Shown in pieces: positions 484 to 2,303 of a stretch of 51,993 nucleotides of DNA; the first letter of the stretch is position 1; each line of letters begins with the position of its first letter. Source of the DNA: Desulfobulbaceae bacterium (lineage in GTDB: Bacteria; Desulfobacterota; Desulfobulbia; Desulfobulbales; Desulfocapsaceae); assembly GCA_004796425.1 (NCBI GenBank), contig QZLB01000167.1, forward strand, positions 1 to 51,993. The letters are read 5' to 3'. The notes beneath the pieces are model-generated. The model ran no database searches. It was not told the DNA's origin and saw nothing but the letters and a program-made list of their open reading frames with translations. The position numbers and the translations under genes are program-made.

Positions 484-555
484 ATCGAGATTATTTGGTT
501 TCGCTCAACAATAATTTGCTTGACCATTGCTACTTTTTTGGATAATCCCTAACAC

Positions 556-710
556 ACAAGGTTGTCATTGCGACACAAGAGGGAATCCTGTGCAAATCAG
601 GAACGGGCCCGCCGCTGTAACCGGGGACGTATTCTGCAAAAGCCACTGGCAGAGCATGCTGGGAAGGTGCAGAACAACGGTAGATCCGGAAGTCAGAAGA
701 CCTGCCTTGT
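556..710 (+). ncRNA. Cobalamin (adenosylcobalamin) riboswitch aptamer
   Basis: The aptamer is bounded by a P1 stem, ACAAGG at 556-561 pairing with CCTTGT at 705-710. Inside it lie the hallmark segments in order: GGGAATCC near 581, CGGGCCCGCCGCTGTAACCG at 604-623, GCCACTGG near 642, GGGAAGG at 661-667, and a B12 box AAGTCAGAAGACCTGCC at 690-706. These match the consensus of the cobalamin riboswitch class. Downstream are further hairpins (723-747 and the tetraloop stem 779-790), which could form the expression platform. Confidence 0.96.
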
Positions 711-815
711 AACAAAGCACGTAACATCCTCGCGGAGTTGGGATGTTGGTCTGCGTCTGTGGTGACAGGGCCCCCGGACCAGGAAACTGGATTCGGACAG
801 GAACCGTATCCCATA

Positions 816-831
816 CCTTTTGATAAAGGAG
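816..831 (+). promoter_or_regulatory. Hairpin that sequesters the Shine-Dalgarno of the small riboswitch ORF
   Basis: CCTTT (816-820) pairs with AAAGG (825-829) around a TGAT loop. The right arm is the Shine-Dalgarno AAAGGAG of the ORF starting at 837. This is what a translational on/off switch under the upstream cobalamin aptamer would need. How it couples to ligand binding is inference. Confidence 0.5.
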
Positions 832-836
832 ACACC

Positions 837-1022
837 ATGGACCGACGGGAAGAAACTCACACCAAGCAATGTTTACTCACCACCAGAGACTGGGACACCT
901 ACCAGACCATTATGCGCACCTGCATCAATCCAGCGCAATTTCAATCGCCTGATCCCTTGGAGCAAGCACCGAATAAGGTGATCCCCACTACCAATAAATC
1001 TTCGACAATTAACACTCATTAA
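837..1022 (+). CDS. Small unknown protein (61 aa) under a cobalamin riboswitch
   Basis: The start ATG at 837 follows a strong Shine-Dalgarno AAAGGAG with about six bases of spacing, and the riboswitch leader runs straight into it. The product is 61 residues and hydrophilic. It has two cysteines (QCLLTT near residue 12 and MRTC near residue 29) and a Ser/Thr/Asn-rich tail ending in STINTH. There is no signal peptide, membrane segment or recognised domain. It is the only gene between the riboswitch and the converging metal transporter operon, so it is the sole candidate for B12 control here. It could be a real small protein, a leader peptide, or the stub of a longer gene lost by deletion. I do not recognise it. 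Confidence 0.55.
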   Translation: MDRREETHTKQCLLTTRDWDTYQTIMRTCINPAQFQSPDPLEQAPNKVIPTTNKSSTINTH

Positions 1023-1040
1023 CTCAAGTGCTTACCCCTG

Positions 1041-1074
1041 GGACCCTTATGGAATTACTTTTCCATGGGGGTCC
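1041..1074. terminator. Hairpin between converging genes
   Basis: Arms GGACCCTTATGGAA (1041-1054) and TTCCATGGGGGTCC (1061-1074) form 14 pairs, two of them G-U, around a six-base loop. It lies just after the small ORF and overlaps the stop codon of the converging permease gene. No clear U-tract follows on either strand, so its role as a terminator is tentative. Confidence 0.45.
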
Positions 1075-2303
1075 TGACTGGGACTGCCAAGACGTTCATC
1101 CAGGTACTCGACTGTATTGCCATCACTGATATGCTCCAGATGGTGTGCCGTCGGGTGGAGTTCTTCTTTGGGCGTACCGATGGTTTCCAGATACGCTTCC
1201 CACAAACGATGCGCTCTGAGCACCTTATTGGCCTCGGCCAAACCTTTGTCAGTGAGCAGATAACCGGTCGATGTTTGCTCGATAAATCCTTCATCACCCA
1301 TATACTCAAGTGCCTTACGGATTCCCTTGCCACTTTGCACATATTGACGGATCACCTCAAGGGGAGTGTCCTTTTCGTAGCGAAGGATGGTGGTGAGAAT
1401 ATCTTCAACAACCTGTTGAGGAACGAGTTTTCGTAGTCGCATCCAGCGTGCCAACAGACCATATTTGGGGGCAACAGCCAGCACCACCAGAAACTGCAGG
1501 GTACAGAACAGCATGATTGCACCACCCCCAGCCGAATCGAGCCAGACGCAGAGATAAAGTCCTCCGATAACACTGGTCACGCCAAACAGAGCCGACAACA
1601 TCATCATCCGGTCAAGCCGGTCAGAAAGCAGATAAGCGGTTGCCGCAGGAGTAATCAGCAGGCCGACGACCAGAATGACCCCGACCATACTCACCGCGCT
1701 CACCACCACAAGCGATACACAAGTCGTGAGCACATAATCAATCAATAACACCGGCAAGCCGATGGAAGCCGCCATCACCGGGTCAAAGGTTGCGAGTTGA
1801 AAATGCCGGAAAAATAGAATCAGGATCGTCAAGACAAAAGCCGCCACCAGGGCACTGACCCAGAGGTCGGTATCGGCGACACCCAATATATCGCCCATGA
1901 TGAAGTGCATCAGGTCGATATGGATGTAATGCCGAAATATAGAAACCGCCACTACTCCCAGGGCAAATATCCCGGTGTACATAATACCGATGGCCGTATC
2001 CTCCTTGACACGGGAAATGCGGGATACAAAGCTGATCAATGCCACCGTCGCGATCGCCGCCAGTAATGAACCCAGCAACATCCCCGGGGCATGCGCTTCG
2101 GCACCAAACAATAGCTTCATTACGAGATAACCGCCAGCGACACCGGCAATCATTGCATGGGAGAGTGCATCTCCTAAAAAGGCCATGCGCCTCAACACGA
2201 CCAGGCAACCGACCACACCCGCCACAATCGCGACAATCGTCCCCCCAATCAATGCCTTCTGGAAGTACACTTCACTCAAAGGGGCAATAAACAATTCATA
2301 CAT
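1047..2303 (-). CDS. Metal ABC transporter permease fused to a C-terminal DtxR/MntR-type repressor domain
   Basis: Residues 1-285 are an ABC-3 family inner-membrane permease (ZnuB/MntC/SitC class) with about eight hydrophobic segments and the LGDALSHAMIAGVAGGYL region typical of the family. Residues 295-418 are not permease. They form a winged helix (QQVVEDILTTILRYEK to GYLLTDKGLAEA) followed by an iron-dependent-repressor dimerisation domain with the conserved RAHRLWEAYL (His365) and HHLEH (Glu390, His391) metal ligands, ending DPHGKVIP like DtxR. The same layout is known in chlamydial YtgCR, where the repressor half is released by proteolysis. The start overlaps the ATPase stop by one base. 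The ligand set suggests Mn or Fe. Self-regulation of the operon is inference. Confidence 0.93.
   Translation of the reverse strand: MYELFIAPLSEVYFQKALIGGTIVAIVAGVVGCLVVLRRMAFLGDALSHAMIAGVAGGYLVMKLLFGAEAHAPGMLLGSLLAAIATVALISFVSRISRVKEDTAIGIMYTGIFALGVVAVSIFRHYIHIDLMHFIMGDILGVADTDLWVSALVAAFVLTILILFFRHFQLATFDPVMAASIGLPVLLIDYVLTTCVSLVVVSAVSMVGVILVVGLLITPAATAYLLSDRLDRMMMLSALFGVTSVIGGLYLCVWLDSAGGGAIMLFCTLQFLVVLAVAPKYGLLARWMRLRKLVPQQVVEDILTTILRYEKDTPLEVIRQYVQSGKGIRKALEYMGDEGFIEQTSTGYLLTDKGLAEANKVLRAHRLWEAYLETIGTPKEELHPTAHHLEHISDGNTVEYLDERLGSPSQDPHGKVIP

Follow-up and report, generated by a model that had tools for sequence, protein, structure and literature searches.

Which gene does a cobalamin riboswitch control when the only candidate behind it is a reading frame of 61 codons? 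We examined this question for a locus at one end of a 51,993-nucleotide stretch of a Desulfobulbaceae contig (QZLB01000167.1), hereafter called the window. A sequence-only reading had described a complete aptamer followed by a single small ORF, and had offered two possibilities for it: a small protein with a so far undescribed part in cobalamin physiology, or what is left of a lost gene. The Rfam covariance model RF00174 matches the plus strand with 120.1 bits (E 1.2e-29), well above the gathering score of 31.5, and the match spans model positions 1–189, which is the whole model. Thus, the aptamer is complete as described, but its start lies at position 542 rather than at 556. Binding of AdoCbl and a change in expression would be predictions from this aptamer match.

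The aptamer ends 114 nt before the ATG of the ORF, and the strong Shine-Dalgarno sequence that had been claimed for the ORF is indeed present (Table 1). No other convincing gene follows on the plus strand for about 4 kb, leaving the ORF as the single candidate target. The neighboring gene was also correctly described as pointing the other way: it encodes a 418-residue ABC-3 permease on the minus strand, is convergent with the ORF and has its stop at 1047. This gene (1047–2303) codes for a metal permease with a fused C-terminal metal-binding domain of the iron-dependent repressor (DtxR) type, and is followed by genes for an ABC ATPase and then a substrate-binding protein. Judging from its predicted fold, the inverted repeat located where the two genes converge is a possible end-of-transcript hairpin. 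A search of the host genome gave no further good copy of the ORF. The host has a second, partial cobalamin aptamer (locus L091, G000:C163, 7528–7665, minus strand; model positions 45–169, 60.8 bits), which has no clear intact gene within about 600 nt on its 3' side and is possibly a decayed unit.

Table 1. Coordinates of the features at the small-ORF locus of the window.
Feature	Position	Strand	Evidence
Cobalamin riboswitch aptamer, complete	542..723	+	RF00174 match
Stem-loop (ACATCC...GGATGT) directly 3' of the aptamer; probably part of the expression platform	724..747	+	sequence, minimum-energy fold
Terminator-hairpin remnant in the aptamer-ORF interval	772..796 (about)	+	fold; terminator of relatives at the equivalent place
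Shine-Dalgarno sequence AAAGGAG, 5 nt before the ATG	825..831	+	sequence
Small protein of 61 aa (ORF with stop codon); conserved residues 1–30 (837–926), variable polar tail 31–61	837..1022	+	homology; predicted helices 3–15 and 19–30
Strong inverted repeat where the two genes converge, without U-tract	1037..1077	.	fold z -4.6

Homologues of the small protein were searched for without using the riboswitch as a criterion. A six-frame search with the single sequence gave matches in 35 of 97 relatives, and a profile raised this number to 61 (26 of 45 genera). With a wider profile, matches were obtained in 116 of the 258 genomes and 38 of the 69 genera of the order Desulfobulbales; roughly one in two genomes of this order has no detectable copy. 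The number of motif copies per genome is nearly always one. The members share an N-terminal pattern of approximately 30 residues, M-x3-E-x4-K-x6-[KR]-D-W-D-x-[FY]-Q-x3-R, in which M1, E5, K10, W19, D20, Q23 and R27 are nearly invariant. They are 30–64 residues long, and the shortest stop at the end of the second predicted helix. The cysteine of the window protein, which had been pointed out earlier, is present as C29; it is common in one subgroup of the family and not invariant.

In a sample of 395 genomes from the phylum, matches were confined to the Desulfobulbales apart from two weak ones. One of these was part of a phosphoglycerate-mutase-like protein and the other was noise, and neither was accompanied by a riboswitch. 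A scan of public genomes with a narrow pattern (14 loci) returned solely records labelled Desulfopila, Desulfofustis, Desulfoprunum, Desulfosediminicola or Desulfobulbaceae/Desulfocapsaceae/Desulfobacterales/deltaproteobacteria. Such kinship labels place the window most likely in the Desulfobulbales, family Desulfocapsaceae.

The sequence-only reading had proposed to look for homologues downstream of cobalamin riboswitches in related genomes, and this is where they were found. In practically every ORF locus checked, RF00174 matched upstream of the ORF and on the same strand, with the end of the aptamer located 55–466 nt before the ATG (median 129 nt, 55 loci). The aptamer was weak in one locus (L088, 37 bits) and just below the cut-off in another (L129, 30.4 versus 31.5), and the upstream sequence of a locus at a contig edge (L071) was too short for the aptamer to be judged. 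The 97 relatives contain a total of 353 cobalamin riboswitches, as compared to about one copy of the ORF motif per genome. In seven related genomes, most of them finished, the other cobalamin riboswitches are mostly located about 80–210 nt ahead of ordinary genes, named from their sequences as CbiK, TonB receptor, BtuC-like and ThiC-like genes. Thus, one riboswitch per genome is reserved for the small ORF in these seven genomes.

Across species, the ORF has a conserved start, an open frame, a comparable purine-rich Shine-Dalgarno sequence before the ATG and a bias towards synonymous substitutions, as is characteristic of protein-coding genes. Entropies at the three codon positions were 0.80/0.70/1.43 in one group of members and 0.83/0.66/1.20 in a second group, such that the third position is the most variable, and dN/dS values of close pairs were mostly 0–0.5. 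Among the members, all six Arg codons are used for R27. The free third positions, the low dN/dS values and the codon usage at R27 argue that selection acts on the protein and not on the RNA.

Neither the window protein nor any of 53 family members had a credible match among Pfam, NCBIfam and PDB sequences, and no description of the family was found in the open-access literature. AlphaFold2, run with 53 sequences, predicted a two-helix hairpin over residues 3–30 (pLDDT about 83), in which the D-W-D motif marks the start of the second helix. The tail was of low confidence, and the model as a whole reached a mean of 71.7 and a pTM of 0.34. No membrane segment was detected in the sequence of the small protein.

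The interval between the aptamer and the Shine-Dalgarno sequence contains a strong intrinsic terminator in most relatives, consisting of a hairpin (GGGCCCCCgGAtCA...TGGtCcGGGGGC) and a U-tract, mostly with a folding energy of -15 to -35 kcal/mol. A terminator at or below -14 kcal/mol was present in 46 of 57 upstream regions, as compared to 46 of 570 shuffles, and longer or slightly weaker terminators were visible by eye in several of the regions that failed this cut-off. The clear exceptions are the genomes of genus g14, locus L072 and the window, where no terminator was called between the aptamer and the ORF. What had been overlooked in the window is a remnant of this hairpin, located at the place where the relatives have GGGCCCCCGGAYCA...TGGTCCGGGGGC and a U-tract. 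Its 5' arm and loop have been kept, but the match of the 3' arm has diverged and the U-tract has been lost. Since the terminator is reduced to a remnant, control in the window may be either translational or relaxed, and the loss of the U-tract suggests that it is possibly impaired. The hairpin at 816–829 (CCUUU/AAAGG), which had been proposed to hold the Shine-Dalgarno sequence, does appear when the energy is minimized, but shuffled sequences fold locally just as well (z -0.28), which makes it a weak candidate for a control element. In line with translational control, the start codon is paired with about 755–764 in the minimum-energy structure, although the z-score of the whole fold is only -1.35.

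The genomic context of the riboswitch-ORF unit falls into several types. Copies that stand alone were observed in most Desulfocapsaceae, including the window, and in some other families. The gene next to them is either convergent, and these copies are conserved, or unrelated, such as those named from their sequences as FeoB, an Fe-S protein and a PanE-like protein. An intrinsic terminator on the 3' side was identified for 18 of 50 ORFs, as compared to 14 of 250 shuffles. A candidate regulated gene directly downstream of the ORF, absent from the window where the convergent gene comes next, is present in about 17 relatives of other families. It encodes a TonB-dependent receptor, and its start often overlaps the ORF stop by 4 nt. 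The receptors tested resemble BtuB models, with scores below the NCBIfam cut-off for B12 receptors. In six genomes (L038, L063, L065, L066, L067 and L130) the motif is fused to CbiK, the periplasmic-type cobaltochelatase (PF06180), as an N-terminal extension before a signal-peptide-like segment. In the two fusions that were analyzed with Pfam, PF06180 starts at residue 74 or 79, so that the motif is not part of the CbiK domain. The unfused CbiKs seen elsewhere, including that of the host, do not have the motif. Finally, five genomes, namely all four of genus g14 and one of g4 (L045, L054, L056, L057 and L064), have nrdJ 0.5–1 kb downstream of the unit and on its strand. These five adjacencies possibly represent a single inherited arrangement. 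Given that the g14 genomes lack the terminator and have nrdJ downstream, their unit may not be monocistronic.

We consider it likely that the ORF, under the control of the cobalamin riboswitch, encodes a small protein that is repressed by B12 and acts in trans in cobalamin physiology. A small protein of this physiology was one of the two possibilities raised by the sequence-only reading, and it agrees with the conservation across the order, the upstream aptamers, the B12-related contexts (TonB receptors and CbiK fusions) and the lack of the motif in CbiKs other than the fusions. The cobalamin riboswitch would govern a transcription unit whose sole gene codes for a helical hairpin of 30 residues plus a variable tail. 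In the relatives, the B12-bound aptamer would probably let the downstream hairpin terminate transcription ahead of the ORF, and at low B12 read-through would give an mRNA with a strong Shine-Dalgarno sequence from which the protein could be produced. We infer repression by B12, translation and action in trans: the direction of the switch from the order of aptamer and terminator and from known cobalamin riboswitches, and action in trans from the single copy, the conserved stand-alone units and the free-standing core of 30 residues. The product would most likely be a soluble partner that acts in trans during B12 shortage, in B12 uptake, in cobalt insertion or on a B12-dependent enzyme. The full version of this proposal, in which an autonomous and soluble hairpin of about 30 residues with a dedicated riboswitch is conserved across the Desulfobulbales, is made only in B12 shortage and tunes one of these processes in trans, seems to us somewhat more plausible than its opposite.

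The position of the small ORF as the first ORF behind the aptamer and its 4-nt overlap with the receptor start in many loci of several families are as expected of a cis-acting leader peptide, and this alternative therefore keeps a minor but appreciable share of the probability. Such a uORF would couple the riboswitch to the translation of a B12 gene behind it, through termination-reinitiation or nascent-chain effects, and the stand-alone copies would be leftovers whose downstream gene has been lost. The six fusions to CbiK can be read in the same way, and termination-reinitiation has a precedent in the B12-riboswitch uORF of ppe2 in M. tuberculosis (PMC11260477). However, the stand-alone copies hold identical residues under purifying selection in many genera, and there is about one copy per genome despite several B12 operons, the other riboswitches driving genes without a small ORF. 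A variable tail after the motif and read-through into CbiK would also be ill-suited to a stalling peptide. The nrdJ adjacencies suggest another role, as a partner or brake of NrdJ in B12-dependent ribonucleotide reduction during B12 shortage, but in the other genomes, the window included, nrdJ lies at a great distance or on a different contig. Since NrdJ is nearly universal, its co-occurrence with the small protein is uninformative, and with the five adjacencies possibly being one inherited arrangement we regard this role as improbable.

It is equally improbable that the window ORF is the remaining start of a longer gene, or that the unit is decaying in the window. The lost U-tract and the unconserved tail (residues 31–61) would be consistent with decay, but the window copy retains all seven nearly invariant residues and an intact aptamer. 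For the family as a whole, a lost-gene stub is refuted by short relatives with the identical core that terminate at 30–64 residues. A truncated start of CbiK was likewise rejected, as the motif and the signal-like segment precede PF06180 and show no homology to the CbiK domain. With the motif outside this domain and missing from unfused CbiKs, the stub that had been offered as the second possibility fails. The least probable alternative is that the output is a B12-controlled regulatory RNA and that the ORF is incidental. Rli55/EutX is an orphan cobalamin riboswitch that ends in a non-coding RNA. Like this RNA and the antisense type, the Desulfobulbales loci have a target other than a gene for B12 transport, synthesis or an isoenzyme; unlike them, their conserved product is a protein. 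Orphan cobalamin riboswitches with non-coding or antisense RNA outputs are known (PMC9943018), but conservation here is at the protein level with free third positions, the ATG and the Shine-Dalgarno sequence are conserved, the ORF is in places fused in frame to a real gene or overlaps the start of one, and the neighbors vary between genera.

A small ORF controlled by a riboswitch is already known as a kind, of which the Desulfobulbales family is a variant. The B12-riboswitch uORFs of ppe2 and metE in M. tuberculosis modulate downstream genes and are of limited or partial conservation (PMC11260477). They share with the Desulfobulbales loci a short ORF with its own Shine-Dalgarno sequence behind a cobalamin riboswitch and, in the receptor-coupled loci, a stop codon that tightly overlaps the start of the gene behind it. 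In contrast, these uORFs are always located ahead of a gene whereas most Desulfobulbales copies lack a B12 gene downstream, the Desulfobulbales proteins keep their residues across 38 genera, and the platform is mostly one of intrinsic termination rather than translational. For deltaproteobacteria, the passages on B12-elements in Rodionov 2004 (PMC545781) place them ahead of cbiK-cbiL, btuCDF and nrdDG, and list one for Desulfotalea psychrophila, which belongs to the same family as the host. Upstream cobalamin riboswitches are thus a shared feature, and these passages mention no small ORF.

Few riboswitches are as common as those for cobalamin, and function is assigned on the basis of what they control. 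The small proteins described here form a previously unnamed family that is conserved across one bacterial order. A conserved target of 30–60 residues, a length that most gene callers would miss, points to a layer of B12 physiology that has gone unnoticed in bacteria of the sulfur cycle. With one gene, one metabolite and cultured relatives (Desulfopila, Desulfosediminicola and Desulfoprunum), the system offers a ready handle on a B12-starvation microprotein.

Other arrangements of cobalamin riboswitches were also observed. ThiC-like genes, recognized from sequence, directly follow a cobalamin riboswitch in five loci (L143, L155, L156, L157 and L162), and their products may make the lower ligand of cobamides anaerobically rather than take part in thiamin synthesis. 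L084 (2470–4686) and L031 (1220–1914) each have two or three cobalamin aptamers in tandem, on a single strand and in a stretch of about 2 kb at most; one of them precedes the small ORF, and in L084 another precedes CbiK. In L069 (6909–7555), two cobalamin aptamers are arranged back to back as a divergent pair on opposite strands.
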